Shown: one piece after another, positions 2,378-64,000 of the stretch
Numbering within the stretch: position 1 is the first letter of the stretch
How the letters are laid out: every line of letters begins with the position of its first letter
From: Siphonodentalium dalli
Lineage: Eukaryota; Mollusca; Scaphopoda; Gadilida; Siphonodentaliidae
Length of the DNA stretch: 64,000 bases
Reading direction: 5' to 3'
Assembly: GCA_032622095.1 (NCBI GenBank)
Contig: CP136064.1
Span: forward strand, 279,333,614 to 279,397,613
The notes under the pieces: generated by a model
What the model saw: the letters and a program-made list of their open reading frames with translations, nothing else
What the model was told of the DNA's origin: nothing
The model's database searches: none
Made by a program: the position numbers and the translations under genes

Positions 2378-2512
2378 CACAATCTATTGTTCTTTGCTTC
2401 GTAATGTTCGTGAGTTCTCTGTCCACCTCAAACACGCCGACACCAGGAGTTATCACGACCGATACCTTACCCGTTCTGTCGAAATTTCTGTCAATGTAAT
2501 ACTGTTCAAACA
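2378..2512 (-). CDS. DEPDC5: DEPDC5 coding exon 12 (last in window)
   Basis: Forty-four codons with [29 protein letters not shown] and [12 protein letters not shown]. This is near-identical to the DEPDC5 core strand that follows exon 11. It ends with one base before gtacgt. I could not find the following exon (expected to encode a GIG.DLVC..GEQP-like motif) in 1-2377, so it probably lies outside. Confidence 0.96.
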
Positions 2513-25490: not shown

Positions 25491-25525
<35 letters not shown>

Positions 25526-40236: not shown

Positions 40237-40365
40237 ATGCCGCCCCGGAATAGGAAAACAGCAAGTACTAGTACCACATCTTATTCAACTACAGCTGTCC
40301 GAGAGAATCTTCTCAAGTTAGTTGATGGTGGTAATCATGATGAACTAGTTGATTTCATCAGAAAT
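40237..40365 (+). CDS. NCAPG2: NCAPG2 coding exon 1 (start codon)
   Basis: Begins MPPRNRKTAST, is Ser/Thr-rich, and continues VRENLLKLVDGGNHDELVDF. Forty-three codons end at the donor gtaagt. A good acceptor (ttactag at 40221-40227) just upstream suggests that the ATG exon follows a non-coding 5' exon. The N terminus is poorly conserved in the family, so the start rests on the first in-frame ATG after that acceptor. Confidence 0.8.
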
Positions 40366-43300: not shown

Positions 43301-46300
43301 CATTTTAACATTCGCCATGGTACCCCCGAGTCACCAAACCAAATTTGGTTGAATACAGACAGTCAGATCCTACTCTTTTATATACCGGTATTTGGATTTG
43401 CTAGATTTTTGGGAAGCAACAATACTGACAAGTTTGCCAAATTATTTGACGCTTCTCGGGGAAATGTAATTGCAATTTGAATGTTGTTGAAGGTTGAATG
43501 TGCAAAAACAATAAAAGTCTGTAAAAACATCACCATTAAGAAGAACATAGAGAAGTAGATAATCTTTGCTTATGTTCATTATTGATAGTTCTGAAATAAT
43601 GAAATTTCGCATGTTGAAACCATTGTTTATGTAAACTATTTTAACAAGACTGTTACAGTGATATGATTTGTCAACAAAAATTGCTAAATGTGTAATAAGT
43701 TTAAATATTTTTGTCTGAAAATGATTTTTCAATGCTTTGACCTTTTCCAATGTTTACCATTAAGTTTTGATTAAACTTAAACATCGTTTTGGACTAATTG
43801 GACTTTTATTGGTAATATCATTGTAACAGTAATGTTTATATGACAATAGTTTTGAATTTTTGAGTTTCTAACAATGAAAATAAGAACAAAGTTGATTCTG
43901 AGGTTCTCCCAGTAGTTGTGTAATTGTGCTGATTAATGATTATGTATATCTTTTGATATCCAGGCAAAACAGACAAAGATTGATCTGGACGATGTGATTG
44001 GGAATTTTACAAACACACAGCTCAATCAACTATGGGAAGATCTGCAGAAGATAAACCTAACCACTGTTATGGAACTTGGAACAGAAGATGAGGACCAAAC
44101 AGAAGAAACTGTAATTATGCTATCACTTATTCTTTGTTAAAGACATATTATGTACTTGTTCGGGTGCGCAAAACTGATAAGCTAGTATTCAGGTGCTATG
44201 CCAACTGGAGGAATGTAGCATTCTACTAACATCGCGGAAAATTTCAAGCAAATTGAGGTACCACTCCATAGAAAACTTTGTAACTTCTCGATTCGGGACG
44301 CAACTATCGGCGATAAACTAACGAAAATGATTTCGTCATCGAGAGTCACTGCATTTAATTAATATATAAGAATGACGGTGTGTGTTGTCAAGTTGGATAT
44401 ACTATTTGTAAAAAATAACTACTTTGAGCAAGATTTTGCTCCATTTCTATTTGATCACCCTGCCGGAGTGTTTCACATCACTTTAAACAGTACCTTTATT
44501 CATGTTTATTCAGTTAATTTACATCAGATACAGCATGAAACTTAAATCAACTTAAACTCAAGATATGATGCTGGACATTTGCAGAATGAGGTCCCCAGAG
44601 GGTGAATTTAGTGATGCTACCCTGCACAGCAGGCTAGCATCACTAAATTTACCCTCTGGGTGCCTCATTCTGCTTAGGCCTCATCTTCTATAGTCTCAAA
44701 TTAATATTGTTTTAGTTCGTTTCCCCCTTCTGGTCAGTTCTATATCCCCTAATTTGCAGAAGATAGCATGCATAATCGAGGTTACTAATGGGTGAACATC
44801 AACTTCAACTGGGGAACTTCAATCTGATCCTAAGTCTCCCATAGCAGTTGAGGCCTCAGCAGAATGAGGTTCCCAGAGGGTAGTGCTGGGCGGTTTCCAG
44901 ATTAATCGTCAATACCCGGTTAATATTTCAATATCGTCAGTAATATCGTCTAAACTAAAATAATCGTAATATCGTCGGCAATAGAGGGTGCCAGACCATC
45001 ATAAGCGTATACAAACAAATAGCTTAAATCGAGTTATTTAAGTTTTAAATTCCAACTAAATCCCTGTGTCCTGACTTTTTCAATATTCAATAATCATAGT
45101 AAACAACGTTTAGGACGACTGACGAAATTAGGGGGATATGAAAACCCCGAATACGTCCCCCTTTCGCTCACAATATTACACAAACCCTCCGACTTCCCTG
45201 CGTACTTTTTATTACAAGAGAATTCACCAAATGATTGAAGACTGATCGGGTGATAGATCAATATGAATGTCAGTTTTGCCACGCCTCTTCCTTCAGTACA
45301 ATGATGCACATGTACCGTCAATCAAAATAGTAAATGAGCGAAGATACCGCCGCCTTCTCGTCTAGAAGAAACCACTCACGGCGATTGGTTAAAACCAATA
45401 TTATAGAATTAGGGCTTCAAACCCGCCCAAAATACATGGTGTCCTTGCTTGGCCGAATTCCAAAAGTTATGTACTACGTGTGTGTGTGGACTTCGCTAAA
45501 ATTTGTCTTGACGGTAAACCATATTCCATTTGTCAAGCGACGCAAGTGTCATCGGGAACAACATATGTATTTGCTCAACATAGTTGAATATACCGAGTTA
45601 GAAAAGGATACTATATAGTATAGAACACTTTTAGTTTTGGCATAGACTAGATAATGGTTTTATTAATTATCGGTATATACCAGAATTTGTCAAGTCACCG
45701 GAAAGAAATTGTCCGAATAGCGGAATTTAACCGGTGAATTTACTTTTCATTCCGAATATCGATCGAGCATGAGGTTGTCACTGGTTGAAAGGTTGTGTAT
45801 GTTATTATTGACGTCAACTTGTCAAAATTAATGACAATGATGTGATTCTAGCGAACAGTGAGAAACTGTTTAAGTTACTAGTATCTGATGTTTTAAAAAA
45901 CCGCGATTATATCGTTAACCGCGGTTTTAATTTGAACCCTGAAATTTATATTACTTCTATGTCCCTAATATCTTATCTGAACCTTTTGTTTTCAGAATAA
46001 GAAGCTGATCGATGTTTTGAACTGTATTGTTGTGCTCGCTCACTCCAGTATCCAGGTCGACAAACCGTATATTCCCGAGTCCTTGCTGGAAGCTGCGATC
46101 CTCTTAGATGGTAGGTATATTCCCGAGTCCTTGCTGGAAGCTGCGATCCTCTTAGATGGTAGGTATATTCCCGAGTCCTTGCTGGAAGCTGCGTTCTTGT
46201 TAGATGTTAGGTATATTCCCGAGTCCTTTCTGGAAGCTGCGATCTCTTAGATGTTAGGTATATTCCTGAGTCCTTGCTGGAAGCTGCGATCCTCTTAGAT

Positions 46301-49300
46301 GGTAGGTTATTCCCGAGTCCTTTCTGGAAGCTGCGATCCATTTAGATGGTTGGTATATTCTCGAGTCCTTGCTGGAAGCTGCGATCCTGTTAGATGGTAG
46401 GTATATTTGAGGCTGATGAGCCATGCAAAGTAAATTTCCCTTTTCTTTGAAAAGCCTGCATGCGTGCTGTTTTTAATTTAATTCTTTATTTCTGGGGAAC
46501 ACGCCAATGAAGCATTCAAACTCAGCATCGGGTAGCTCCGCATTTAATATCCGTCGCCATTATTACCCAAACAGATGTCCATAAAAGTAGTTGATATATG
46601 ATTTATTTTGTCAAAAATCACCCAATAAAGTATCATTGACACAGTTTTAGTTCAACTTTACTTTGTAAAGTTTGAGCTATTGTCATTGGTTGGTGTCCAT
46701 CGGTCGTGCATCCGTCCATCAACAATTTCCTATCGCTCACCTTACAGGCCACATCCCTCATCCGATCATCACCGAACTTCATACGGATCTTCGGGGTGAC
46801 CTCTAGATGGGAGCCATCAATTTTTTTCAGAAATTTATTGAAAAACATGGCCACCAGCAGCCTTGTTGAATTTTGAATTTGAATCCATCGACGGAATCCT
46901 TGCAGCCCGCATTTATTGGAGAATTGTTTTTTAAATTTACAGACATGTTTAGGATCACCTCTAGATGGGAGCTATCAAATGTTAATGATTTTTTATGTAA
47001 ATCATGGCCACTGGCAGCCATCTTGGATTTTAATCTTTGCATGACTAAATCCTTTGGCTCACCCTACAGACCACATCCATGATCCGATCATCAACAAACT
47101 TTGTATGGGTCTTCGGGTGACCTCTAGATGGGAGCCATTGATTTTTTTTCGAATTTCGATAAAAACATGGCCACCAGCAGCCATCTTGGATTTACGACTT
47201 TCCTTCTTTATTATTCTATTCATTGCTCAGCAAAAAACAAACTCATTCCCAAGTATAGCTACAGTGTCATTTGACACTTTCATTTAATGAGTTTTCAGAC
47301 ACAATGCACCACATGTTGGAACATACTTGTCAATTACAGTAAATTTGAATCGGGAAATGGGACTGTTTGATGTCACTTCCATGCACGTTTGTATAAAAAC
47401 ATTCCACAATTGTTTTGTACCGATTAAAATTTTTCCAACAGTTCACATGTGAATAAAAGGGTTGCACATGCGGGGTTTCGGAGCCCCGTGGATTCCCATT
47501 TGATCATTTGTAATCATAATGTTTGTTGACTGCTCACCAATGTGAAGCTCTTGATAAGTGGTTAACCCTATCATAACTGGAGCTTCCTGAAATTTTGTGA
47601 AAACCCAGTGACAATGCATTCTCTTATATATGCAAGTCTTCCATAAGGAGCCTTGCATATATAAGAGAATACATTGGCCTAACAGTATTTACATTGACCT
47701 TGTAAGCCAGTGAATTCTCTTAGAAATGCGGGGCACTGGCACATGATCCTTAATGCTGCACCAGCTCCCATCATGAAGGTGTTAATACAACCAAGTAATC
47801 ATCATTTTACTGGGAGATCTTGTGATTCAGAGAGAAGCAAAAGTTGGCCACAAAATAATTTAGGAACAAATTTGGCCTCAAAATTAATTTTCATGCCACT
47901 GCAGATGGTGATAACATATTTATTGCTTATTTACTCTCAGGTACCTAATAATAGTGTCAGCAGGATTATTAATTTGAGAGAAAATTCTCAGTGATCACTA
48001 ATATTTGGCATTGAGACATAGAGTGAAATTGCCATCTCTATTATTAATTTCAGCCTAAATCCCCACCAATCACGATTATTGGGCACCTGAGAGTAATAGC
48101 CTTATTTCAAAAGGTTATTTTAGTTTTTAAATCTCATTTTCCTTCCATCAGGTATAATTCCATCCATTTTCCTTCCATCAGGTATAATTCCATCCATGCC
48201 AGACACTGCTGAGCATTTTAAAGTCAGCTGTGTTAAGCTCTTCGAGCTGTGGTGGACAAAGAACTTGGAGCATCGAGAAGAAATAATCTTCAATACACTG
48301 TGTTATTATCTAAGGAAATGTCAGAATGAGAATGTCATAGTGAGTATTACTCTCTCCCATCATAGTGAATACTCATTCTATCTACCCCCAAACATAGTGA
48401 TTACTTCAAACTCCCCGCCCCCGAACATAGTGAGTACTTCATACCCCCCCCCCCCCCCCAGAATGGGAATGTTATATTGAGTACTTCATACTCTCTCCCA
48501 CTGAATTATTGTGATGTTATGTCATTATACCCCCATAACAAAGTTATAGGGAGTACCCTGCTGGACAAAACTGGACACCGTGGCCGAATGGCAAGTACAC
48601 CCCGCCTGAACGGCAATTACACCCCGGCTGAACAGCAAGTACACCACGGCCCAACTGCAGTTAGCTGGTGGAGCCACGGTGGCAATGCAAACCGCACCGT
48701 GGTTAAGTGGACACTTGTTTTGTCCAGCAAGGTATATTGGAATCAACGATTATATATGAGTTCTGTCCAACTTTTTTTAGTAGAGTCCCCATTTTTCGAC
48801 TTAGAAACATATATGTTAATATGGCTACCCTTAATCCTTAATTATTTGGCATCTTCAGTGTTATTGAAATAACCTAGAGATCTTCAAGCATGGTACTGAA
48901 GAGACCCTTTAACCTTAAACTACTGTCAGAAATCTTTTTCCTTCTTGCAACAGGTTTAGAAGATTTACTAACTAATTTTCATGTGTTTTGAGTAGCTCTA
49001 TGTTCTTTATGATATTAAATATAAAGAATTTACATGACTTCCTTTTAGAGATTTAGGGATGTCCTTTAAACTCGTTAAGGAAAGTGTCTTTCTTCCTGGC
49101 TGCATACCAGTTACGACAATTATTTTTTCATTTTAATTTTATTAGTTGGTTTACAAACATAGAAGGGGAAAAAATCTCTTAATGGAGGAGTGAATAAATA
49201 TGAAAAACCAACGCATTAATATCTAAAATATTCTCATTTTCATATGCTACTAGTATTATAACTGAGAGAGTTGTTTGCAGTCTCTTTAAAAAGCTGACGA

Positions 49301-52300
49301 AAATATTACAATATTTACATCTCTGGATATCTCATTCATAGTCAGTTACTGAAAAGATAGGATTCCCTCCTTTCGTTGGAGAGTGGCGAAGCACCTGCGT
49401 GATTTCATTGGTTTATGGCATGACAGATCACTTCACAGATCAGAGGTCAATGATGTGTTGACAAGTTTCCCACGCGTTGTCAAACTCAACTATTGTTGGA
49501 AAACTGAAAACAGGCAATATATCCATAATTGATTATACTCATCGCAATATCGGAGACATCATCTTAAGATTTATCAGACGATATATTTCGTGACTGATTA
49601 TTCTTTCGCATTACTATTTCTGAAAACTACGATTCTCACAAATTTACTATGCCAGGAATGCACTCCATATTTGGAAATGGTTTATTACGTCGTGTCATTG
49701 TAGAAATGAAATATAATGGACACCTCGAGAAGCATACATCCATTAGGATTATCATCGGCTTTTAAAAGAGACTGAGGGGTTTGGTGATACAGTAATGCTC
49801 TAAGTATTAAATCGACTCCTTAACCATAGCAGAATTATGGGTAACTTTTCAGGATTTAGTCGGAAATATGGCTTGTGCATTCATCGGAAAGCTCTCAGGG
49901 AGAGCTTTCCGATGAATGGCAACAAGCCATATTTCCGACTAAATCCTGAAAAGTTACCCATAATTCTGCTGTGGTTAAGGAGTCGATTACTTAGAGCATT
50001 ACTGTAAGTCTTACTGTACACAAACTGAACACCATGGGCCAATTGTTTTTTTTTAATTTCTTATTTGTATAATGATTTGGGCATTTTGGGCAGGATCCAC
50101 GCTGGACCGAAAATTACTTTTGCAAAATATTTTGCCAAATGAAAATAATTTTTTGCCAAATGCTGTTAGAAGTTGCCAAATGCTATCAGTTTCTACAACA
50201 TTGTTTCTTTTATTTTGACTTTTTCGACAATTGTTGCTTGAGCGACCTTTGATATCGATAGAAAAGCAGTTAGTTATTAATATTTCTCGCCTCTATACGT
50301 GGGTTTATCATAAAACAATAAACCAACAACATAACAATGAAATTGTAGAAGGGTTCTTCATCAGAAAGGCACATCAAAACAAAGAGGATTAGCTATGTAA
50401 ACACCACCACCAGACATACGAGCAATCCCTCCTCCCGTCGATACTAATGATATCCGATTAATTGCATCTTGATAGAGGTGTTAACTTTTCAGAACCTTAT
50501 TAATCACCACTAATAACATTAATAATGAATGACTTTCCGGAAATGAGTGGTATTGATTGACAAATATTAATAAACTTTCTTGAGGAATCAAAAGTGACTT
50601 GCCAAAATTGTTGCCAAATGAAAATATTTTTTGCCAAATGTGAATTATTTTTGCCATTGGCAAATTTGGCAAGTGGCAGCGTGAACCCTGATTTTGGGTT
50701 TCATTAGACTCAAGTCACATTTGTAATTAAAAGCTGTAAACTCCTGTCTTACATAATAATCTTGGATCATTTCACAGATTGCAGATGTGAAAAGATTGTG
50801 GAAGATGCACGATATTCTGAAGAATATAAATTTTGATGGCGAGAAATCATCAGAAGTAAAGCAGCTTCTCTTCAGTTGCTTCGAGAAGAACAAATTCTAC
50901 AAAATTGACGAGGTTAGTATAATAATTATATCGATATTGACGAGGTTAGTATAATAATTCTGTCGATATTGACGAGGTTAGTATAATAATTCTATTGACG
51001 AGGTTAGTATAATAATTATATCGATATTGACGAGGTTAGTATAATAATTCTATTGACGAGGTTAGTATAATAATTCTATTGACGAGGTTAGTATAATAAT
51101 TATATCGATATTGACGAGGTTAGTATAATAATTGACGAGGTTAGTATAATAATTCTATCAATATTATGACGAGGTTAGTATAATAATTGACGAGGTTAGT
51201 ATAATAATTCTATCGACGAGGTTAGTATAATAATTCTATCAATATTTTGACGAGGTAAGTATAATAATTCTATCGATATTATGACGAGGTTAGTATAATA
51301 ATTCTATCGATATTTTGACGAGGGAAGTATAATAATTCTATCGATATTATGACGAGGTTAGTATAATAATTCTATCGATATTATGACGAGGTTAGTATAA
51401 TAATTGACGAGGTTAGTATAATAATTGACGAGGTTAGTATAATAATTGACGAGGTTAGTATAATAATTCTATCGATATTTTGACGAGGTTAGTATAATAA
51501 TTCTATCGGTATTGACGAGGTTAGTATAATAATTCTATCGATATTTTGACGAGGTTAGTATAATAATTCTATTGACGAGGTTAGTATAATAATTCTAATG
51601 ACGAAGTTAGTATAATAATTCTATCGATATTTTGTGATCAACTTATATGGACTCTTATTGTATTTATGCACCCTTTCTTTACTAAATTACTTATTGATGA
51701 GTTATTCCCTTTGGAAATGTTCGGATAATAAGTTCACAGTCCATTTGTTGAACTTATTATTTGAATATTTCCCTCCAATGAATAGGAATCCTTCTGCATT
51801 TGTATTACCGGTATCTGCCATCTGCTTTTATTTCATGGTCATCCCGCCAAATGTATAATAGACAATGTATTTTATTACTGATGGGAGAATCCATGGACCA
51901 GCCTAGACTTGGGAGAAATCTTCTCCCTAAAGCCACTTCTCCATATTTTTGTTCTGGGGAGAAGTTACTTCTCTGTCATAAACCAGTATGCACATGTATC
52001 AACAGCATTTTAAAAGTATATTCACTGTTTATAATGGTGTTCTTACTCACTATAATCATTTTATAAATAGGCTATTGTATTGCATAATACTTATTGGATG
52101 ATAGAATGATGATGTTGAGGTGTAAATTGAACTTGATAAATTATGACTTCTCCCCAATAATCTAATAGGGAGAGGTGACTTGAACGACTTCTCCCTATTA
52201 GAAACCTATAGGCTTTTTAGCTCAACTTTACTTTGTAAAGTTTGAGCTATTGCCATGGCTTTGTCGTCCGTCGTCCGTGTGTGCGTGTGTACGTAAGGCG

Positions 52301-55300
52301 TCAACAATGCAGTCTACAGGTCGTACCTTTGGTCGGATCATTATGAAATTTGTCATAGCTGTTGACATCAACATTTAGACCAGAATGATTAATTTTGGGG
52401 TCATTCGGTAAAAAAACATGGCCGCCAGTGGCCATCTTGCATTTCAAAATTCAATCCATTAGCACGGGCTACAGGGCGTACTGTTTGTCTGATCGTCATG
52501 AAATTTGTCATGGATGTTAATATTGACATGTAGATGGGAACGAGTAATTTTGGGGTCATTCGGCCCAAAAACATGGCCGCCAGCAGCCATCTTGGATTTT
52601 ACTCTTTGTATGACTAAATTCTTTAGCACGGGCTACAGGTCGTACTTTTAGTCTGATCATGATAAAATTTGTCAAGAATGTTAATAATGACATGTAGATG
52701 GGAACGAGTCATTTTGGGGTCAATCGGCCAAAAAACATGGCCGCCAGCAGCCATCTTGGATTTTACTCTTTGTATGACTAAATCCTTTAGCACGGGCTAC
52801 AGGCCGTACCTTTAGTCTGATCATCATAAAATTTGTCATGGCTGTTGAAATTGGAATGTAGATGGGAACGAGTAATTTTGGGGTCATTCGGCAGAAAAAC
52901 ATGGCCGCCAGCTGCCCAGCAGCCATCTTTGATTTTACTCTTTGTATGACTAAATCCTTTAGCACAGGCTACAGGTCGTACATTTAGTCTGATCATCATA
53001 AAATTTGTCATGGCTGTTGAAATTGGAATGTAAATGGGAACGAGTCATTTTGGGGTCATTCGGACAAAAAACATGGCCGCCAGTGGCCATCTTGGATTTC
53101 AAAATTTAATCCATTAGCATGGGCCACAGGTCGTACTGTTCGTCTGATCATCATGAAATTTGTCATGGTTGTTAATATTGGATTTTACTCTTTGTATGAC
53201 TAAATTCTTTAGCATGGGTTACAGGTCGTACCTTTAGTCTGATCGTCATAAAATTTGTCATAGATGTTAATAATGACATGTAGATGGGAACGAGTCATTT
53301 TGGTGTCATTCGGCCAAAAAACATGGCCGCCAGCAGCCATCTTGGATTTTACTCTTTGTATGACTAAATTCTTTAGCATAGGCTACAGGTCGTACCTTTA
53401 GTCTGATCGTCATAAAATTTGTCATGGCTGTTGAAATTGGAATGTAAATGGGAACGAGTCATTTTGGGGTCATTCGGACAAAAAACATGGCCGCCAGTGG
53501 CCATCTTGGATTTCAAAATTTAATCCATTAGCATGGGCCACAGGTCGTACTGTTCGTCTGATCATCATGAAATTTGTCATGGTTGTTAATATTGGATTTT
53601 ACTCTTTGTATGACTAAATTCTTTAGCATGGGTTACAGGTCGTACCTTTAGTCTGATCGTCATAAAATTTGTCATAGATGTTAATAATGACATGTAGATG
53701 GGAACGAGTCATTTTGGTGTCATTCGGCCAAAAAACATGGCCGCCAGCAGCCATCTTGGATTTTACTCTTTGTATGACTAAATTCTTTAGCATAGGCTAC
53801 AGGTCGTACCTTTAGTCTGATCGTCATAAAATTTGTCATGGATGTTAACGATGACATGTAGATGGGATACAATCATTTTGGGGTCATTCGGCCGAAAACA
53901 TGGCCGCCAGCAGCCATCTTGGATTTTACTTTTCTCTTCATGTCTATAAACTAGTATTAGACATTCAACTTTCCACATTCCTAATCGCTCCATTGACTGT
54001 AATACATTAAATTATTCCCTTTCCAAGTTGAGCTACAGTGTCATTGACACTTTCATTTATTAATTACTGTGAATCATGGACGAAAAATGTCCCAAAATTA
54101 CAACAACGTTAATTATGTCGAAATTTTACCTATTTTACATAATAAGGCCACATTGACCTAATTAAGCTACATTGACATAATAAGTGTGGCGTTTATTGGG
54201 CAGGCTTTATTTTGGCAATAGACGTAGTGATCGGTAGATAAATATATTTATTGTACTAAACTTAATTTTAGAATAATCCACGATTGGCTGTCTGGTTTAA
54301 TCATGTCATGCTGTGATTTTGAGGTGTATGTATTTTTTTTTTCAGGGGAGAAAATTACTTGCGTTCATCTTTTCATTAGAAGCATCGTCTATTCAACATA
54401 TCCATGAAATCATGAAGAATACTCTAGCTACTGTTCAAAAGTATGTAGATTAAAGTATGTAGATTAAAGTATGTAGATTAAACTTTAAACGTATGTAGAT
54501 TAAACTTTCTGTAGTAAGTTTTCTAAAATGAATGGTATGGATTGACTGATATTTTTCAACTTTATTGAGGAATTAAAAAGTGACTTGCCAAAACTTTGAA
54601 AAATATGCCAAATGTGAATTATTTTTGCCATCGGCAAATTTGACAAGTGGCAGCGTGAACCCTGAGCTACATTCTATTTGCCACTTGAAATATTCATACT
54701 ACATCCATTCATTCTCAAATTTGATTTCACAACTTCACAGGATGCAATGGCCTCAGGTTGAACTGATCCGTACATGCAACGACACCATTATCTTTAAAAC
54801 ACTGACGTCTAGTGTAAATAATGCAGATCAGCGATGGATCAGGACAGTTTTACAGAGATCTATATATGCATTTTTTTTTTTGGTTTTGGTCGCGTTTTAT
54901 TTTATTTTATTTTACAGGGGTCGATAACATTAGTAGAGACGGAGGTCTGGACTTTGGGTGGGCGGGTTTATACAGACATCACTATTATTTTTTTAGGCCT
55001 AATGTTCTAATTGTCTGTCTGTTTTGAAACATTAATCTGAGTGAACATTTCAGATCTAATGGCCACTTTTATGGTGAAGTATACTTCAGAGCATGGCAGA
55101 GAGCGGAAGGAAATATTCAAGAGGTGAGTATTCTGTATACGAAAGAACTTAAAGATGGTCTATCTCTTCCTATAACACGTTTTATATAGTTCCCTGGGTA
55201 TATAATAAAGATGGTCTATCTCTTCCTATAACACGTTTTATATAGTTCCCTGGGTATATAATAAAGATGGTCTATCTCTTCCTATAACACGTTTTATATA

Positions 55301-58300
55301 GTTTCCTGGGTATAAAATAATAAATATGAATCAAAGACCCCTGTCCTGAAACTCTTCTATCAATCAATATTAATATTATTTCAAATTTTCTGGAATAATA
55401 CATTTTACGGCTCACACAAACTTTCGGAGCATAGCAAGGGGAGAACTCTATCTCTATCTGAGATTGCCTGAACATTTCATGTTTTAAAAATTGTAATGAA
55501 ATAATTTCGCAATTGATTATTGCATTATATAAAAAAATATCAATATAAAATCAATATTAATTGATAGACGCGTTTCCGGACAGGTGTTTTTACTCATATT
55601 TATTATTTTACACCCAGGAAACTATATTAAACTTATTTAGGAAGAGATAATCCATGATCCATTTTTAAAGATGGCTGAATGGCTTTCTATAGCAAGTTTT
55701 ATGTAGATTCCACAGCTGGATTCCATGGTATTTAATAATATATATGAATTGAGGACACCTGTCTGGAAACGCTTCTATCAATTAATATTGATTTTATTTA
55801 GAATATCTTATGACATTCCACATTTTAGCGGCGAATTTCAGAGGAAGACATTCAGAGCGTACCAAGAGCATATCAAGAAGGAGAATACTATCTTATTAAC
55901 AGCCTGAATCATGGAAACTTGTAGATCAGCTGAGGGACCGCAAATTACGATCGAAATAAACCACTTTATTATGCCTTTATAGACAAATAATATACCCTAT
56001 CTTCAGTTTTATATGTATTTTATTCACAAAATTGCTATTAAATTATAGTTTTGAAACCAGGATTTATAAAAATGATGTTATTGTTGTAATTTTTATTCGG
56101 AAGAGATGGACCATCTTCAATTATTCTTATTTTTTGGGGGTCTATTTCTTGCTAAGTGTATAGCCTATAGCACCTCATGACATGTCACTAAACCTATTTT
56201 GCTACTGCATATATATGATACATGTGATTAGCAAATAATATGTGCAGTTATTATTTGTAAATTGAAATACAATATAAATCTATACATGTACTTGTATGAT
56301 TATCTAAATATGATATAACATTAATAATTAGTTCCATGCTTCAAGGAAACCAGAGCCCATAATCAAGTTTATGTATCGATATATTCAACTCCTGGAAAAC
56401 CCTTGAAAATTGCCCCCAAATACTTCTGCAAACTCCTTGAATATCATTTCAAAATTGGTGCAAGAATCCTGTCATTAGCTGCTAGTTACTAGTCCTGTAA
56501 TGATTCACTGACATCTCATTGCATCACGATTCATTTGTCATGATTCGATTCACAATCTATTTCGTCACACATTCGACACACAATACGTTCCATCTCTCAT
56601 TCACTTCTTTCAGCTGTTGATTAAATTTGGTTCATGTAATTTAATTGTCAAATCAGTACCGTATGTTTCTGTAACTCTGTGTGCATTGATGAACTGCACA
56701 TTCACGATTTTGAATACTAGGCATAATTTGAATGTCTCCGCTTATTTAAATAATATACACACTCCAACTTCACATTTGATGCATTAAAATTATCCATAAA
56801 GTGACCCTCGTAACTATGACAACAACCATATTATATTAAAGTAATATTTTGATAGGGTGCTCTGGATTTCTTTAGCCAATCGAATGTGCTGTGTTGAATT
56901 CACATCCCCAATTATTATTACAACAACAACACAGATGAGAACAAAATAAAGAAAAAACAAAATTATTAAAGACTGTCTGCCAAAAAAAAGGTTAATATTA
57001 GTACATCTCGTGAGAAATTGTATCATTACAGCCCGTCTAGTTACTGTAATGAATCATTAGCATAATGAATTAAAAATTCATAAACTGATCTTGATGTAAG
57101 GTATCTGTTTTCTTGATATCTTTATCTAGCATGACCCCTTTCATTGACCCTCTCTTTAGCAGTCACATTTCCAACCCATCAGTTAGACCCCTTTCATTGA
57201 CCCTCTCATCAGCTGTCGCATCTCAAATCTTTCATTGAGCCTCTCTTTAGCTGTCACATGACTCATAACTCCAACCATCATCTCATGCAACATTGGTTTT
57301 CAGTTATTTTCATGTTCCTGTTGTATTATGTCATACTGTCAGACCATGTCTACATAAATACAATTCTTTTTTCAGGTGATTGAAGTTAAATGTATCCAGG
57401 ATCTGATGTATTCTGCCATTCATTGTGACAGATCAGTGTCTGATTTATATTCCGTTCTCCGAAAGGTTTGTTACTAGTATAAGTAATAGCACATGCGCTG
57501 TTAAACTTTAATGCCATGATGCCAAAAAAACTTTTTAGAAAACTCCCAACATTTTGTGTTTTCATAAGAAAGAAGCATTATTTTCACTGAAAATTAAATG
57601 TAACTGCAGCAATTTGTTCAGATGCACTTTAGAAAAGTCATTCTTGCATTAGGCAACACATAGCTATGTAGATGCAGCTTTTTGTGTCAGTAAAACCTAT
57701 AAGTTTATTACAATCAATGCACCTAAAGTCGGTAACAGCTCCTGCATTATTACAACTGCAGATGCAGATTCTTGATAGATTTCATTCAGTTCATAGCCTT
57801 GAAATAGTGTCTGTCATTTGCAGAATGAGGTCACCAGAGGGTGAATTTAGTGACGATGGGCTAGCATCACCAAATTCACCCTTTGGGCACCCCATATTTT
57901 AGAACTTTTTCTGGATTTAAGATATTGAAATGGATTTTCTGTGCTGAATTCAGAATTTAATAACCTTTCCAATTGTATAAAATTATGGTAGACAAAATGA
58001 ACATACCCAACACCCATGCACATGAAAAATGTCCACAATAAGTCAAAATACTACTGGGATCCCAGGGTCAGGATGTTGATCATTATAATGTTGTATATGA
58101 GACGCTTGTGCTTTGTTGTAGGTGCTCGGAGTATTCCACCAGAATAAAGAACAAAGAACAGTTGACGCGATGATGCTCAAACTGTATGAGCCAATACTTT
58201 GGAGATCACTAAAGGTCAGTAAGTGCTTCAAGCCATCAGTAATACGACAAGCAGAGAAACGACCTACAGTAATACCCTAAGTAATCGACTCCTTAACCAC

Positions 58301-61300
58301 AGCAGAATTATGGGTAACTTTTCAGGATTTAGTCGGAAATATGGCAACAAGCCATATTTCTGACTAAATCCTGAAAAGTTACCCATAATTCTGCTGTGGT
58401 TAAGGAGTCGATTACTTAGGGCATTACTGTATTGGTTTCTAAGGATGTTTAGAAAATATATCTGATAGTTATAAAACATATTAGTTGAACATCCATGCAA
58501 AGTGAAATCTCCTTGGTTTGCAATCAGTAAAATCAGGTATCAATTATTTAGGGCTACAATGATATATCGCGATTTCAAAGCATCATGATTCTTTCTCTGC
58601 ATTGCATAATCAGGATGATACCACGATTCAGGTTTTGAATAGAAACAGCAGCTTCCTACTCATCACAGTTGTTGGAAATTTGTGTCAAAAGCCCGAAAAA
58701 ATTTATATTTCCACTGCTACAGTTTCTATACAGACTCTGTAGTAACTATAGCCATGGAAATGTTTACTTATTCAGGTTTTTTGACCCAAATAATAAATAG
58801 TAACAATCAGATATAGAAAAATTTACTGTTTAGAGCTACATGTCCATTCATTATTCTGGAGTGATAATTAATCAGGTTTATCAACTGAATTTTTCATCAT
58901 AATATTGTGATGTGCATGCATTGTGAACCCTCTGCATCATTGCAGCCGTACAATTATTTTAGAAAATCAGGACTGGATAGACTGACTGCGATCTAGTTAG
59001 ACTCATCTTTTCTAACATATTGCAGAAAATAATAACAGTGTTTATGACACTAGAGTTTTAACAGATGTCAAACTTTTATTTGGAGCTGTTTTTGTAAGTA
59101 TGTATGTAATGCTTTATTCTCAGCCATTATTCATGGGATGTGAGAAAACATATTCACTATTCACAAATGACAACGCTCCAGTGGTTTGTTCCAAATATTT
59201 GAACAGTAAATAGATGTACATAAATTAAACACACATTGAAAGCAATCATGAACACAATCCAATATTACATTAATATGTCTGAAATAGAAGTGAATTTTTT
59301 TTTTTACAGATATATCTTAAGCACATATTTGAATAGACACATGCAGCGTACATATTCATAAATAAACACTCGCCATAGAACTAGAGTCCATTACTCTAAA
59401 CAAAAAGAGTCTTTAATTCTGGTACAGCATTGTCAAGAGACACTAAAATGGTGTAGATAGCCAAAAATGCTGTGAGAAAAAAAACGATAAAAAAAACATA
59501 GGTTGTACACTGATTAAAGGTAATTCATTAGGCCAAAAAACAAAAATTATTTTTTTCTGAATCAATGAGGGAGGAATGACTTAATTTTTTATTTTTTGTA
59601 AAATTAAATTGTGCTACTGGTATATATACCAAAGGGATTACCTATAATGTTGTGTGACTATTCACAATTGTTATTGTTGTCTATGAATTGGCACCTCTCA
59701 TAACATGTGATCCTAAATTTCATCCAGTGCCTGTCAATTTTTCTGGAGCTAGTGCACCATACTATGATGATCAGCTAATCATTTTCTTCAATATAGTCAT
59801 CTACTTAAGTTCTATGTCACTATATGTAGGTCTGCAAATTTGAGACAAACGACTGACTGTTCAGTTCACCTGGAGGTTATCTAAATTAAAAATGCTGTGA
59901 ACGAAAAACAGGTCACGCCAAAGTTTTATGTAGGTCTCGCTATAACTGATTCTCACCTTAATTTGAGACATTCAAAATTATTATGGTATTTCAATAAGTT
60001 GCCAGATGCCCATCTGTAGTTAATAATACCAGTTGTAGTGATTATAACAGTTTGTGTAACTCTTCTGCTAACCTATAGTATGGGTTACCTTAGCGCAAAC
60101 CAGGCAAACGAAAAATAGGTTACACATAATTTAGAAACTTGCAGGCCTGATATGTATCCATGATAGTCAATATTTACAAATTACACATAGATATGTTAAG
60201 AGTTCATGTATTTTGCAATTAATGCTCAATACGTATGGACATGTTTGATAAAACAGACTGAAATAATTTTGGAAAATAAATTGAATTTTTTTTTTTACTT
60301 TTTTGTCATACGGTTATATAAAAAATTGAACTAAAACGTCCAATGCGGGCCATTTAATTAAGCGATGATGCACTAATATGCATATTACCTACATTTATTT
60401 CTGATCATCAACCTTGTTCTTTTTTATGCAGGTGGCAAATTCTAAGGTGAGATGTAATGCAGTCAATCTTCTCACAGATGCTTTCCCATTACAAGATCTC
60501 ACATACAGAGTTGCTGAATCTGATGCCTTGCTGCAGAAACAGTTTGATACTCTGATGGTATGTGTTCGAACAATATATTAATTTTCTCAAAACAATATCC
60601 TTCACAGTTCTATAATTCCATAATAAAAATCATATTAATGTCATAAACAAATATCACTTTTACATTACAAATTTTTGTTATACAATTTCAATTTGTTAGA
60701 GGATCTGTTACAAGTCTGAGTTTAGTGTGCCTGTCATTTGTAGAATGAGGTCCCCAGAGGGTGAATTTAGTGACACTATCCCGCATTGTTGGGCTAGCAT
60801 CACCAAATTCATCCTCTGGGGACCACATTCTGCATGGCCTCATCTGCTATGGGAGACATAGATTCAGATTGAAGTTCCCAAATTGTGAATATTGTGATGT
60901 ACACCCATTGGGAACCTCAATTATGCAATGTGTCGTCTGCCAATTTGGGGATATAGAAAAACTAAACCATAAATGAAATAGAAAATGTGAAGAAGTTTCT
61001 ATAGAAATTTGATGCTGAAGAAACTTCCAGAGAAGATGAGGCCTCAGCAGAATGAGGTACCCAGAGGGTGAATTTAGTGATGCAAGTCCCTCTGGGACCT
61101 CATTCTGCTAATGACAGGCACACCAATCTCAAGCTTGATCTGTTATACAAATTTTTTTTCCATAAACTGCCTCTTCAGATTTTTGCTCAAAATTCAAAAG
61201 ATAACCACCAACACTGGCAATATTTATTATTAAATAATGTCCGCCAGTTTGTGTAATTGTTTGGCTTAGCATTGTGAGAGGGCACTGAATTATTACCACT

Positions 61301-64000
61301 TCCATTGAAAGAATAACATAGAATGCAGTCTGTTTAAAAAATGGGACACTTTTTCTAATGTATCACAAAAATGGGACCCTTTTTTTAAAGTAAATCTTAC
61401 TATTTTGAATATTGTGATTACAGTTATGCAATCTTAACAATGACCTGATATAAAAACCCTGGGTCCCAATTTTCTCCATCTTACACCAGTCTGGTAGTGT
61501 AAATGATGATTTTACAAAAATTGTTCGAACACTATTTGTCAGTTTAAGTCTCTTGCTACATCTTGACCAGACTTTTCCGATAATACAACATGCAAGGATT
61601 CTGAACAATATAGACAAATGATGTCATGACGCAGTGCTCAGAGTGTGGAATAATATACTAACAGTGTAATAACTCTTTAGGGATTCTGGGAGTGGGAATA
61701 CAATTTATATGTTGCCGCAAAGTTGTTGAGAATATAATAATTATGAAATCTTAACCTTTCCAGGATTTGCTACAAGATCCATGTCATCGAGTGAGGTGTG
61801 CCACCATCGAGGGGACGTGTAAGATCCTGAGCCGGTACTGGGAACACATGCCTGGAGCAGTTCTCAAAGACTTCCTTCAGCTTCTAATACAAAAACTAGC
61901 ATTTGATGCATCGTCGGCCGATATTAGAGAACTTAGCGTCAGAGTAAGGAATAGATAAACAATCGTTAAATATGGAATACTAGTGGATTGTTCATAAAAA
62001 AATACATTAATTGTATGTGTTTATTCCATCACAAAATAACAATTGATGAAAGAAAATATGATAATCATGCATCACATATTACAACACATCAGATATATTT
62101 CCCAACCCTTTACAATGAATGCTAACGCCGATAGCAATGTAACTGTTTTGAGAAACCTGCTAAAACCCTAGAGGGTGAATTTCATTATGCTACCCTACCC
62201 AGTGGGCTAGCATCACCAAATTCATACTCTGGGGACCTCATTCTGCGTGGCCTCATCTGCTATGGGAGACCTGCAAATAGATTTAAGTTCCCAGATGGTG
62301 AAGATGATGATGTGCACCCATTGGGAACCTCGATTATGCATTGTATCATCTGCCAGTTTGGGGATATAGAGAAACTAAAATGAAAAAGAAAAGTAAACTT
62401 TCTAAAGAAACTAAAAAACTTGTTAATCAAAACAATAAAGATAGGACTCATCTTCTCTGGAAAGTAACTTTATTGTCAAATTAACAAGTTTTTTTAGTTT
62501 CTTTAGAAAGTTTCTTTAATAGTTTAATATAGTTTCTCTAGATCCCCAAATTGGTAGACAAAACAATGCATAATCAAGGTGCCAAATGGGTGCACATCAC
62601 CATCTTCACCATCTGGGAACTTAAATATGAGTCTATGTCTCCAATAGCGGATGAGGCCATGCAGAAAGAGGTGTCCATCCGGTAGCATCACTAAATTCCC
62701 ACAGGATTAATTTGATGCTAGCCTGATGTGCGTGGTAATGTCAGTAAATTCGCCCTCTGAGGACCATATTCTGCAAATGTCCGGCACCATATTTTCAGAC
62801 CTGTTATCACAGAGAAGCAAGTGTGTGAAATTGAGGCATCTTATTTACAGGGTATAAAGTTACTTCTGGAGAATCGATTAGCACAATCAACACTCGAACC
62901 ATTCTTATTTACAGGGTATAAAGTTACTTCTGGAGAACCCATTAGCACAATCAACACTCGAACCATTCTTACCAAAGCTTCAGAATTTTATCCACGATAA
63001 CTCTGAGCCAGTCAGAATCGCTATTCTTGATCTGCTGCTTTCTGTGAAAAACATGAGATCAATCAAGGTGAGAGGATATACAAACAATACTTATCCATTT
63101 CATGGCTGGAGCTGCAGCAATTCATTCTCTTATAAGGAGCCTCACATATATAAGAGAAATCACTGGCGTCAAGGTAACTATTGTTATGCCATTGAATTCT
63201 CTTATATATGCGAGGCTCCTTATGGGAAACTCGCATATAACAGAATGCATTGGCACAGGATTTTTACAAAATTTCAGTACGCTCCAGTCATGGAAGAGTT
63301 AAAGATACTTAACCACATCAAACTACTGTAAAAAGCCCTGCAAATCTGTGTAATATACATATAGAATATGTAGCTAGTGCCATCATAAACTGTTTATGTC
63401 CGTGAGGGGGATTAGAGTATCTATTGGATGATAATAATGGCTTTGAGCGCATTAGCATGGTAATTATAATGAAAATGAATTCATGAATGGAGTCATAAAT
63501 TCATTTTCATTATAATTAGCATTTTGATTGCATCGTTCACAGAGTACACAAGTGTATTTTGCATGAATCCATGGCTCAAATTCATTCATTTGTTTGCATA
63601 TATTCTGTTGAGTATAAAAGGAGATGGTCCCATTAATGGCCAGATTTAGTGTACAGTACCCTTTAAAGGCACCTAATAATTTCAAATCAATGGCTCTATT
63701 GGTTGTGAAATTTGAAGATCCATCTCAATAGTGTGGACAATTCATATGACCATCGTTATAAAGCCATGTATTTTAAGTTTATGTTTACATATTGCAGTAC
63801 TGGCAGATAGTTCCATTGGAGCACATTATGTATAGGCTGGAGGTTGACGAGAGATCCGTGTGTGAGCGGATTGTGAGGCTCGTCGGCAGCACATTCTGTC
63901 CTAAAGACCAACCCCTCGATGTGCAGTCGGAGTGGTGTCAGAAACTAATTCTCATGTACCCAGACAGTGTGCGACACTTCTACACCTTCATCAAGAATGA
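40237..64000 (+). CDS. NCAPG2: Condensin-2 complex subunit G2, 5' part, 13 coding exons
   Basis: NCAPG2 is the HEAT-repeat subunit of condensin II that binds the kleisin NCAPH2 and helps compact chromosomes in the nucleus from early prophase. Thirteen plus-strand exons join in frame into 564 codons: 40237-40365, 43964-44110, 45996-46110, 48182-48339, 50778-50912, 54346-54440, 55054-55123, 57376-57465, 58122-58214, 60432-60557, 61764-61943, 62915-63067 and 63798-64000. Matches to vertebrate NCAPG2, as I recall it, run through the whole length: EVYFRAW, LYEPILWRSLK, VRCNAVNLLTDAFP, RYWEHMP and LAFDASSADIR. The gene continues past the right edge. Five junctions lie within tandem duplications. 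Confidence 0.95.
40366..42380. other. NCAPG2 intron 1, first part
   Basis: Holds repeat pieces: GTAACCCGTCCGACCG-type sequence at 40430 and a related stretch at 41880, and a GCCGAAGGCATAACC.. block at 41070-41160. No coding exon seen. Confidence 0.45.
42390..42485 (+). repeat. 22-bp tandem repeat, about five copies
   Basis: Degenerate units of CACCCCCTACTCATTGGATG with gaps. NCAPG2 intron 1. Confidence 0.8.
43175..43390. repeat. SINE-like repeat relative, NCAPG2 intron 1
   Basis: TTGAGCTCCTTTTAATTTTG, ACCCCCGAGTCACC, CCAAATTTGGTTGAA and CAGTCAGATCCTACTC, ending in TATATACCGG. Truncated and poly-T rich. Confidence 0.55.
43964..44110 (+). CDS. NCAPG2: NCAPG2 coding exon 2
   Basis: Forty-nine codons with IDLDDVIGNF and QLNQLWEDLQKINLTTVMEL, then an acidic tail EDEDQTEE. 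It matches the SLNELLDELS..QKEELWQRLKNLL region of human NCAPG2. The acceptor is tatccag and the donor gtaatt. Confidence 0.9.
44566..44880. mobile_element. GAATGAGGTCC element, right part interrupted
   Basis: A full hairpin at 44581-44673 and the first arm of a second at 44860-44880, which stops abruptly at GAGGG|TAGTGCTGGGCGGTTT, the start of another element. NCAPG2 intron 2. Confidence 0.7.
44881..45950. mobile_element. Probable hAT-like element (TAGTGCTGGGCGG end)
   Basis: The left end resembles the hAT terminus at 22239 (TAGAGATGGGCGG) and cuts a foldback MITE. Motifs such as CGGTTAATATTTC and CCGCGGTTTTAA near 45915-45935 suggest an end around 45950, but I could not find a matching right inverted repeat or duplication. 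A 94-codon ORF at 45334-45618 has no recognised domain. Confidence 0.35.
45996..46110 (+). CDS. NCAPG2: NCAPG2 coding exon 3
   Basis: Thirty-eight codons plus one base: NKKLIDVLNCIVVLAHSSIQ, then ESLLEAAILLD. The last 44 bp and the donor G|gtaggt are the first unit of a seven-copy 48-bp tandem array in the intron. A donor in copy 2 (after 46158) would add 16 residues in frame. Confidence 0.9.
46067..46408 (+). repeat. 48-bp array of exon 3 end plus donor, seven copies
   Basis: Units start at 46067, 46115, 46163, 46211, 46258, 46306 and 46353. Each contains the last 44 bp of NCAPG2 exon 3 and the bases GTAG. Copy 1 is the exon itself. Copy 2 keeps G|GTAGGT; copies 3 and 4 read GATGTTAGG. The frame stays open from 46017 to 46250 and would encode repeats of RYIPESLLEAAILLDG type. 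Confidence 0.93.
46640..47286 (+). repeat. CATGG.CGCCAG.AGCCATCTTGG repeat element, short copy
   Basis: Starts AACTTTACTTTGTAAAGTTTG and ends GCTACAGTGTCATTTGACAC. About three interior units. NCAPG2 intron 3. Confidence 0.75.
47562..47785. mobile_element. piggyBac-like MITE, NCAPG2 intron 3
   Basis: TTAA at both ends (TTAACCCTATCATAACTGGA left, ATGAAGGTGTTAA right) with a hairpin at 47608-47677 and a decayed second one. Confidence 0.75.
48137..48196 (+). repeat. 30-bp duplication of exon 4 acceptor
   Basis: Two identical units (TTTTCCTTCCATCAG then GTATAATTCCATCCA). Each contains a complete polypyrimidine tract, AG and first exon bases. Confidence 0.95.
48182..48339 (+). CDS. NCAPG2: NCAPG2 coding exon 4
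   Basis: Fifty-two codons with IIPSMPDTAEHFKVS, FELWWTKNLEHREEI and CYYLRKCQNENVI. It matches ..LCVTWWEKGLPAKE in human. The acceptor is tandemly duplicated in a 30-bp unit. The distal acceptor used here gives the family length, and the proximal one (exon from 48152) would add ten in-frame residues. Confidence 0.93.
48557..48732 (+). mobile_element. Complete 176-bp TA-flanked MITE with short array
   Basis: Left end CCTGCTGGACAAAAC after TA, three degenerate units of the GGCAAGTACACC array, a tail with CAACTGCAGTTAGCTGGTGG, and right end GTTTTGTCCAGCAAGG before TA. It is in NCAPG2 intron 4 and is the reference for interpreting 29676-32500. Confidence 0.8.
49360..49780. repeat. Dispersed repeat, inverted copy of 700-1010
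   Basis: Contains GGAGAGTGGCGAAGC, GATTTCATTGGTTTATGG and ATATATCCATAATTGATTAT, the reverse of the left-edge copy. The mariner-like MITE at 49790 follows. Confidence 0.7.
49790..50004. mobile_element. Palindromic mariner-like MITE
   Basis: Flanked by TA. The ends CAGTAATGCTCTAAG and CTTAGAGCATTACTG open long inverted arms that meet at an extra inner hairpin (GGAAAGCTCTC/GAGAGCTTTCC). NCAPG2 intron 4. Confidence 0.85.
50091..50690. mobile_element. Non-autonomous hAT element, 600 bp
   Basis: The ends CAGGATCCACGCTG and CAGCGTGAACCCTG are imperfect inverted repeats (12 of 14). ATTTTGGG at 50083-50090 and 50691-50698 is an exact 8-bp target duplication. The interior repeats TTTGCCAAATG-like motifs. 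It is in NCAPG2 intron 4 and ends 87 bp before exon 5. A shorter relative is at about 54515-54664. Confidence 0.9.
50778..50912 (+). CDS. NCAPG2: NCAPG2 coding exon 5
   Basis: Forty-five codons: IADVKRLWKMHDILKNINFD then LLFSCFEKNKFYKIDE, matching ADVCRLWRIHQ..LLECFIN in human. The donor GACGAG|gttagt is repeated about 25 times in the intron that follows. Confidence 0.93.
50897..51630 (+). repeat. About 25-copy array of exon 5 donor
   Basis: Units of about 20-35 bp, each with GACGAGGTTAGTATAATAAT, the junction of exon 5 with intron 5. By eye I count 25 copies; one has the stronger GAGGTAAGT, one the broken GAGGGAAGT. Unit length varies through optional TCTATCGATATT segments. Confidence 0.95.
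52212..54062 (+). repeat. CATGG.CGCCAG.AGCCATCTTGG repeat element, expanded copy
   Basis: Starts AGCTCAACTTTACTTTGTAA, ends GCTACAGTGTCATTGACAC. About nine interior units (ACATGGCCGCCAG.AGCCATCTTGGATT, TAGTCTGATC.TCATAAAATT). A block of about 410 bp from near 52970 is repeated almost exactly from near 53390, a higher-order duplication. NCAPG2 intron 5. Confidence 0.85.
54346..54440 (+). CDS. NCAPG2: NCAPG2 coding exon 6
   Basis: Reads GRKLLAFIFSLEASSIQHIH and EIMKNTLATVQ plus two bases, matching GRRFLSCLFNW..IHGTIKNQL in human. The donor gtatgt starts a 14-bp unit repeated four times. Confidence 0.9.
54439..54506 (+). repeat. 14-bp repeat of exon 6 donor, four copies
   Basis: GTATGTAGATTAAA at 54441, 54455 and 54469, and again at 54491 after an 8-bp spacer. 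Each starts with a possible donor preceded by AAA or AAC. Confidence 0.9.
54515..54664. mobile_element. Truncated copy of the 50091 hAT element
   Basis: Matches the last ~150 bp of the 600-bp element (GACTTGCCAAAA .. TTTTTGCCATCGGCAAATTT .. CAGCGTGAACCCTG). The left part is missing. It is in NCAPG2 intron 6, just after the 14-bp donor repeats. Confidence 0.8.
55054..55123 (+). CDS. NCAPG2: NCAPG2 coding exon 7
   Basis: Reads SNGHFYGEVYFRAWQRAEGN then IQE. The EIYFRAWKKA motif of the family is clear. The acceptor is atttcag and the donor gtgagt. Confidence 0.95.
55152..55322 (+). repeat. 56-bp tandem repeat, three copies
   Basis: Units of AGATGGTCTATCTCTTCC .. GTTTTATATAGTTCC .. GGGTATATAATA. 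Starts about 30 bp after the exon 7 donor but does not include it. Confidence 0.9.
55323..57375. other. NCAPG2 intron 7
   Basis: AT-rich. Parts of 55560-55900 repeat 55150-55450 imperfectly (CCTGGAAACGCTTCTATCAA-like). A direct repeat of CCCCTTTCATTGACCCTCTC occurs near 57135 and 57190. No exon seen. Confidence 0.45.
57376..57465 (+). CDS. NCAPG2: NCAPG2 coding exon 8
   Basis: Exactly 30 codons: VIEVKCIQDLMYSAIHCDRS then VSDLYSVLRK, matching AIENDCIQDFMFHGIHLPR..KVREVL in human. The acceptor is tttttcag and the donor gtttgt. Confidence 0.95.
57805..57900. repeat. GAATGAGGTCC hairpin module, intron 8
   Basis: A single shortened palindrome preceded by AGCCTTGAAATAGTGTCTG, the family's left end. 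No right end was seen. Confidence 0.7.
58122..58214 (+). CDS. NCAPG2: NCAPG2 coding exon 9
   Basis: Thirty-one codons: VLGVFHQNKEQRTVDAMMLK then LYEPILWRSLK. The YKPILWRGLK motif is nearly invariant. The acceptor is gttgtag and the donor gtcagt. A palindromic mariner-like MITE lies 52 bp downstream. Confidence 0.96.
58267..58429. mobile_element. Palindromic mariner-like MITE, 163 bp
   Basis: TA on both sides. CAGTAATACCCTAAG and CTTAGGGCATTACTG begin arms of about 75 bp that are almost perfectly complementary. It is the same family as 49790-50004 but lacks the inner hairpin. NCAPG2 intron 9, 52 bp after exon 9. Confidence 0.88.
58432..59828. other. NCAPG2 intron 9, middle part
   Basis: No gene seen. 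A TAGGGCTACAATGATATATC stretch at 58549 resembles a hAT-type end without a partner. Confidence 0.45.
59829..60149. repeat. Dispersed repeat shared with 14450-14790
   Basis: About 320 bp with TTCACCTGGAGGTTATCTAA and GGTTACACATAATTT near the ends. The end sequences GCAGGCCTG / CAGGCCTGC suggest a TIR. The copy at 14450 is nested inside a foldback MITE. Confidence 0.7.
60432..60557 (+). CDS. NCAPG2: NCAPG2 coding exon 10
   Basis: Forty-two codons with VANSKVRCNAVNLLTDAFPL and LLQKQFDTLM. It is a HEAT repeat matching ARNSEVRSNAALLFVEAFP in human. The acceptor is ttatgcag and the donor gtatgt. Confidence 0.96.
60728..61124. mobile_element. GAATGAGGTCC composite element, intron 10
   Basis: The ends GTGCCTGTCATTTGTAG and CTGCTAATGACAGGCAC enclose hairpins at 60741-60831 and 61048-61110. 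The interior includes GGGGATATAGAAAAACT, shared with the other composite copies. Confidence 0.75.
61764..61943 (+). CDS. NCAPG2: NCAPG2 coding exon 11
   Basis: Sixty codons: DLLQDPCHRVRCATIEGTCK, ILSRYWEHMP, LAFDASSADIRELSVR. It is a HEAT repeat equivalent to LLEDPYPMVRSTGILGVCKITSKYWEMMP. The acceptor is tttccag and the donor gtaagg. Confidence 0.96.
62170..62800. repeat. Degenerate GAATGAGGTCC elements, intron 11
   Basis: Hairpin remnants at 62170-62246 and 62650-62773 with an inverted interior (GATATAGAGAAACTAAAA at 62364, mirrored near 62530). They end about 50 bp before the duplicated acceptor of exon 12. Confidence 0.65.
62840..62978 (+). repeat. 64-bp duplication of exon 12 acceptor
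   Basis: CTTATTTACAG|GGTATAAAG occurs with exon starts at 62851 and 62915. The copies differ at a few bases (GAATCGATT versus GAACCCATT). Confidence 0.93.
62915..63067 (+). CDS. NCAPG2: NCAPG2 coding exon 12
   Basis: Fifty-one codons: GIKLLLENPLAQSTLEPFLP and HDNSEPVRIAILDLLL, a HEAT repeat with the family HDNSE.VR motif. The first 64 bp and the acceptor are duplicated just upstream (copy at 62851). Using the upstream acceptor would shift the frame, so 62915 is the sensible start. Confidence 0.93.
63092..63302. mobile_element. piggyBac-like MITE, NCAPG2 intron 12
   Basis: Two degenerate hairpins (63116-63163 and 63187-63254) and right end CCAGTCATGGAAGAGTTAA. The left TTAA is mutated. Confidence 0.65.
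63798..64000 (+). CDS. NCAPG2: NCAPG2 coding exon 13 (cut by window end)
   Basis: Reads YWQIVPLEHIMYRLEVDERS, then VCERIVRLVGSTFCP, and continues to HFYTFIKNE at the window edge. It matches FWKICPMEHILVRLE..RRLVSLIFNSFLP in human. The acceptor is attgcag. Confidence 0.95.

Follow-up and report, generated by a model that had tools for sequence, protein, structure and literature searches.

Tandem repeat arrays spanning five splice junctions of the NCAPG2 gene in Siphonodentalium dalli

Introduction

Five splice junctions of a single gene in Siphonodentalium dalli lie within short tandem arrays, and in each array the repeated unit straddles the exon-intron border. This raises the questions of how such arrays could arise on exon edges, whether their overlap with splice junctions exceeds chance, and which of the duplicated sites the gene would have to use. 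The analysis covered one window, the whole 64-kb stretch of DNA that contains the first 13 exons of this gene, together with a neighboring gene that served as a control.

Results and Discussion

Gene models and other features of the window

The exons of the gene carrying the arrays were placed by splice signals and reading frame, giving 13 exons with 24 internal sides (Table 1). Joined together, the exons encode 564 amino acids without a stop codon. Residues 36 to 561 of this model aligned to condensin-2 complex subunit G2 (PDB 9f5w_G; E value, 8.5e−111), and the model also matched the Pfam family Condensin2nSMC (PF12422; E value, 3.4e−55). On these alignments, the gene that carries the five arrays is NCAPG2. 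Its exons are 70 to 180 nt in length and its introns 613 to 3,598 nt. A candidate exon between exons 6 and 7 (54741-54769) was dropped, as including its 29 nt would shift the reading frame; it was also ruled out by the join of exon 6 to exon 7, which aligns gap-free to condensin-2 G2.

The control gene, DEPDC5 (GATOR1), lies on the opposite strand, and the two genes form a head-to-head pair across 36501-40237. Nine DEPDC5 exons were located, supported by matches to PDB 6ces_D (E value, 2.7e−113) and Pfam IML1 (E value, 1.7e−79). The control therefore consists of 18 located sides, as the start of the protein and two internal segments of the human protein were not located.

Mobile element sequences and additional repeats were also identified. 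The region at 9485-11766 (+) carries a reverse transcriptase open reading frame (ORF) (RVT_1; E value, 4.8e−10) and, downstream of it, a tyrosine-recombinase-like ORF (Phage_int_SAM_1; E value, 3.8e−07), a gene order that suggests a DIRS-like element; an ORF upstream of it (7970-9091) had no Pfam match. Within the DEPDC5 span, an open reverse transcriptase ORF of 937 amino acids at 32649-35459 (−) (RVT_1 E value, 2e−37; zf-RVT E value, 1.4e−06) is, by our own reading, of the LINE type. One minisatellite unit of 22 bp is present as rotations at two sites and as a close variant at a third (29762-29876, 32266-32406, and 48591-48650), and a 79-bp unit is found at both 7578-7795 and 13874-14332. 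Two ORFs 825 bp apart (12675-12899 and 13500-13724) have identical translations and probably reflect a larger local duplication. In DEPDC5, two repeats lie just short of exons, namely, a 29-bp array at 16942-17379, separated from a donor by 24 bp, and a duplication of 53 bp at 25246-25351 that lies 42 bp away from an acceptor.

Five unrelated arrays on NCAPG2 junctions

Arrays were called with TRF and their coordinates merged, and the copies were counted separately. A sequence-only reading of this DNA had placed the donors of exons 3, 5, and 6 and the acceptors of exons 4 and 12 in tandem arrays; both TRF and the copy counts confirmed all five junctions and the copy numbers given for them (Table 1). 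In every case, the unit extends across the exon-intron border.

The arrays differ in their internal regularity. In the exon 3 array, the six spacings include two of 47 bp, and copies 3 and 4 carry TT where the donor GT would be expected. The exon 5 array is built on a 22-bp core (TGACGAG followed by GTTAGTATAATAATT), with five differences across 550 bases, and its four spacings result from differing amounts of spacer after this core. A GT is present at the donor position in 24 of the 25 copies, the remaining copy having GG. Three of the exon 6 donors are arranged head to tail, with the fourth 22 bp further on, and the exon 12 unit of 64 bp comprises 12 nt of intron and 52 nt of exon.

Searches with the five units using blastn-short identified matches elsewhere in the window over 9 to 12 bp only (E values up to 1). 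The proposal that the units are unrelated in sequence was thus upheld, and the lack of longer matches between the units and the rest of the window indicates that the five arrays are separate events.

Table 1. Gene models, junction-spanning arrays, and diverged junction copies in the window
Feature	Position	Strand	Description
NCAPG2 (condensin II subunit G2)	40237..64000	+	Exons 1-13; exon 13 cut by window end
NCAPG2 exons 1-6	40237-40365, 43964-44110, 45996-46110, 48182-48339, 50778-50912, 54346-54440	+	
NCAPG2 exons 7-13	55054-55123, 57376-57465, 58122-58214, 60432-60557, 61764-61943, 62915-63067, 63798-(window end)	+	
DEPDC5 (GATOR1)	2378..36501	−	Control gene; 9 exons located
DEPDC5 exons	36501-36414, 28935-28850, 25203-25120, 18847-18778, 17544-17404, 16493-16424, 15190-15118, 7120-6930, 2512-2378	−	
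Exon 3 donor array	46067-46407	+	7 copies; 48-bp unit across exon end; donor after 46110
Exon 4 acceptor array	48135-48197	+	2 identical copies; 30-bp unit; AGs end at 48151 and 48181
Exon 5 donor array	50904-51631	+	25 copies; spacings of 21, 26, 32, or 34 bp
Exon 6 donor array	54438-54508	+	14-bp unit; 4 GTATGT donors
Exon 12 acceptor array	62839-62971	+	2 copies; 64-bp unit; AGs end at 62850 and 62914
Exon 4 donor (48339) copy	48334..48500	+	Diverged copy 137 bp downstream; 22/25 bases alike
DEPDC5 exon 28935-28850 acceptor region	28957-28909; diverged copy 29159-29111	−	43/49 bases alike; 202 bp apart

Diverged copies of further junctions

To extend the comparison beyond arrays called by TRF, all 42 located sides of the two genes were scanned for ungapped, border-spanning copies up to 1,500 bp away. 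The donor of exon 4 has a diverged downstream copy with a score of 19, which was reached by none of 300 flank shuffles (highest score, 17), and partial CATAGTGAGTACT-like copies lie between the donor and this copy (TRF 48385-48455). This donor probably represents a sixth, older junction duplication, absent from the list of the sequence-only reading. The score of the diverged copy at one DEPDC5 acceptor was likewise reached by none of 300 flank shuffles. Self-matches at the acceptors of exons 6 and 11 (scores of 14 and 13) were attributed to chance, as 13 and 11 of the 300 shuffles, respectively, reached them. A DEPDC5 donor with a score of 13 and two NCAPG2 sides with a score of 12 were left out of the counts without shuffling.

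Origin of the arrays

The ends of the arrays were compared for short direct repeats. These were found at the exon 3, 4, 6, and 12 arrays (GTATATT, CAT, AAA, and TCTTA; 7, 3, 3, and 5 bp, respectively), where the chance of at least three matching bases is 0.064 for each array, and the ends of the exon 5 array match by eye over three to four bases. End repeats of 3 to 7 bp are a usual mark of slippage or microhomology-mediated duplication. For other arrays, the comparison consisted only of array length modulo period (0 in 3 of 36) and is not a clean one.

These features fit a simple origin, in which slippage or microhomology at short direct repeats would seed a tandem duplication, and independent duplications without any junction-specific machinery would suffice to produce the arrays. 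We consider it fairly probable that the arrays are small minisatellites derived from independent local tandem duplications, whose founding units happened to straddle an exon edge and of whose sites the one nearest the exon is chosen.

Overlap with splice junctions relative to chance

The window contains 36 merged TRF arrays (period of ≥10 and score of ≥50), and local repeats cover about 10 to 24% of noncoding positions, depending on region and range. How strongly the arrays are associated with junctions depended on the null model. Under a coverage null, in which the map of the 24 NCAPG2 sides was shifted, five sides fell in arrays versus 3.6 expected (P = 0.31); counting arrays hit instead of sides gave five versus 2.16 expected (P = 0.033). 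A founding-unit null, in which each array was collapsed to one unit, was also applied because a long array grew from one unit and hence had one unit's chance of meeting a border. Under this null, 5 of the 15 NCAPG2 arrays lay on a junction versus 0.74 expected, with P = 0.0003 by both random placement and circular shift, and for the whole window the count was 5 of 36 versus 1.17 expected (P = 0.0047). None of the 19 DEPDC5 arrays did so, although with 0.45 expected this comparison has little power; correspondingly, no TRF array was found over any of the 18 located DEPDC5 sides. When proximity rather than overlap was considered, 9 of the 36 arrays in the window were within 50 bp of a junction versus 2.5 expected (P = 0.0008).

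A positional, score-based test gave a similar spread. At a threshold of 16, 6 of the 24 NCAPG2 sides had copies. The collapsed background within the NCAPG2 span was 3.9% when copies up to 150 bp away were considered (P = 0.00025) and 7.2% when the range was extended to 1,500 bp (P = 0.0059). The same counts set against the raw background gave P values of 0.047 and 0.51, and a threshold of 20 (5 of 24 sides) raised the raw-background P value to as much as 0.6. Pooling both genes against the collapsed background yielded P values of 0.005 to 0.056, weaker than for NCAPG2 alone.

Overall, P values for NCAPG2 ranged from 0.6 to 0.00025 depending on the null and threshold, and as the excess was noticed after the fact in one gene, they flatter it. 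The junction excess is unproven and moderate at most. The original description of five in 24 sides as far above chance is therefore not supported as it stands; an excess appears in NCAPG2 only when arrays are counted by founding unit, and it weakens when both genes are considered. Similarly, the idea of a repeated process stands insofar as the unrelated units point to separate events, whereas the coverage result (5 of 24 sides versus 3.6) gives no indication that the process is aimed at junctions.

Neutral placement leaves the founding-unit excess in NCAPG2 unexplained. This excess, together with the clustering of arrays within 50 bp of junctions and the probable additional cases at the exon 4 donor and one DEPDC5 acceptor, would be accommodated if splice junctions were hot spots of tandem duplication in this genome, owing to some property that exon edges have in transcription, splicing signals, or chromatin. 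However, the DEPDC5 arrays miss every located side (with the little power noted above), the coverage nulls and raw backgrounds give P values of 0.033 and 0.31 and of 0.047 to 0.6, respectively, the excess was found afterwards in a single gene, and the units share no sequence with one another in the window search. Such hot spots therefore appear unlikely, and independent duplications that by chance included an exon edge are retained as the preferred origin.

Reading frame and predicted strength of the duplicated sites

The sequence-only reading had suggested that redundancy keeps splicing intact, since one site of each set is enough. One site per set does give an open frame, so that redundancy can account for the tolerance of the arrays, but in exons 5, 6, and 12 this must be the copy nearest the exon rather than any copy. 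In exon 5, each of the 24 remaining copies (including the GG copy, which is no donor) fails to give an open frame, all three other exon 6 donors lead to stops, and use of the upstream AG at exon 12 would lengthen the exon by 64 nt and bring in a stop. As no other copy keeps the frame, production of the protein would require that some transcripts, at least, use the exon-nearest site of these three exons. Visual inspection revealed no obvious branch point belonging to the second AG of exon 12. The remaining two exons are more permissive; exon 3 has a second donor (+48 nt) that is in frame and open, while its three later GT donors are not open, and the upstream AG of exon 4 adds 30 nt, also in frame and open.

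Predicted pairing with U1 was −8.7 kcal/mol in 22 of the 25 exon 5 copies, the first included, and −12.6, −8.5 (the GG copy), and −3.6 kcal/mol in the other three. As these decoy donors are, by this prediction, no weaker than the real one, position must decide the choice between them. Equal predicted pairing was also found for three of the four exon 6 copies and for three of the seven exon 3 copies, so that donors at exon 3 are only partly equal. The setting of exon definition, with a short exon, long flanking introns, and donors of equal strength, is thus present, in exon 3 only in part.

These data also bear on whether the copies were kept by selection, either because extra U1 sites strengthen exon definition or because copies that stay in frame, in exons 3 and 4, yield additional protein variants. 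The near identity of the 25 exon 5 cores despite variable spacer length, and the open in-frame extensions offered by the first extra donor of exon 3 and the upstream acceptor of exon 4, could be read in this way. However, recent expansion or homogenization would yield the same core pattern, use of the alternative copies in exons 5, 6, and 12 would run into stops, and the GT has been lost from exon 3 copies 3 and 4. A special RNA fold of the exon 5 array was also rejected, as the array is predicted to be less stable than shuffled sequences (z = +3.28), 20 of 20 shuffles folding at least as well. Retention by selection is accordingly quite improbable. An assembly or sequencing artefact that multiplied single junctions is more improbable still for, although long repetitive arrays are error-prone, the copies in exons 3, 5, and 12 differ among themselves, and the exon 4, 6, and 12 arrays span only 63, 71, and 133 bp, lengths that fit in single reads of common platforms.

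How splicing may tolerate the arrays

If the arrays are minisatellites of independent origin, the gene must still be spliced across them. With short exons and long introns, splice sites would be paired across the exon (exon definition), and the site nearest the exon may be favored over equal sites further out, as suggested by the reading frames above and by human data. In the available part of one study of human splice site choice (PMC9225289), five exon-definition minigenes, each carrying a pair of identical strong donors, were spliced exclusively at the upstream one, and natural near-equal pairs in a long-intron context favored the site nearest across the exon, that is, the upstream donor. 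According to the same source, the downstream donor had the advantage in about 60% of human events until pairs were filtered for equal strength, and in the larger constructs identical donors that had been weakened mostly resulted in skipping of the exon.

Under such a proximity rule, extra donor copies would be nearly neutral, and donor arrays could grow (7, 25, and 4 copies). A weaker rule at acceptors might, as a conjecture, hold acceptor arrays at two copies. The difference in copy number between donors and acceptors (7, 25, and 4 versus 2 and 2) has an exact Mann-Whitney P value of 0.1, based on five arrays and noticed afterwards. The acceptor half of this model is weak, since acceptors are described in the available part of PMC9225289 as preferring the upstream site, a preference that is reduced under exon definition.

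Comparison with known systems

The arrays resemble intron gain by tandem duplication (the Rogers model) in that a local duplication copies splice signals. Intron gain of this kind has been argued for Drosophila (PMC2891723 and PMC2809761, as far as available). In the potato RdRp gene, the tandem-duplicated segment crosses an intron-exon border (PMC4974935, in part), as do the duplications at NCAPG2 exons 4 and 12, and the same source cites fission yeast genes in which a 24-bp AGGT segment is repeated several times in tandem and an intron extends across the copies. Unlike intron gain, the NCAPG2 copies sit within the introns of an otherwise collinear gene, with no new intron indicated, as a gene model lacking one has an open frame and aligns collinearly with condensin-2 G2. 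Nor do the available portions of PMC4974935 and PMC2891723 describe arrays on the donor side that reach 25 copies.

Intronic minisatellites or variable-number tandem repeats, such as the repeat in TERT intron 6 (PMC3948165, in part), share with the NCAPG2 arrays head-to-tail units of tens of bases. The NCAPG2 units, of 48, 30, 21 to 34, 14, and 64 bp, are arranged head to tail and fall within the range of about 10 to 100 bp typical of minisatellites, but unlike the TERT repeat as described there, they include the exon end and the splice site itself. The exon 5 array in turn parallels the minigenes of PMC9225289, as far as that source is available, in presenting equal-strength donors after one short exon between long introns. 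It differs in that the NCAPG2 arrays are natural, reach 25 copies, and are not in a human cell. Taken together, the arrays are, judged by their sequence features, best filed as minisatellites with a splice site in the unit. None of the open-licence papers listed, judged by title and opening of the abstract, counts tandem arrays at splice junctions across a genome, which is not proof of absence.

Implications

On a broader reading, exon edges in this lineage could be recurrent birthplaces of minisatellites, and splicing could determine which of these grow, with donor arrays expanding as the nearest donor continues to prevail, acceptor arrays held at two copies, and introns lengthening from the donor end through mutation combined with exon definition; we regard this as rather doubtful. 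Counts of repeats at exon edges hinge on the null that is chosen, coverage or founding units. The 25-copy donor array of exon 5 amounts to a naturally occurring counterpart of the minigene experiments on spliceosome choice among identical donors, and the reading frame in that array tells which donor must be chosen. The NCAPG2 case suggests that repeats which overlap an exon edge can be nearly neutral.
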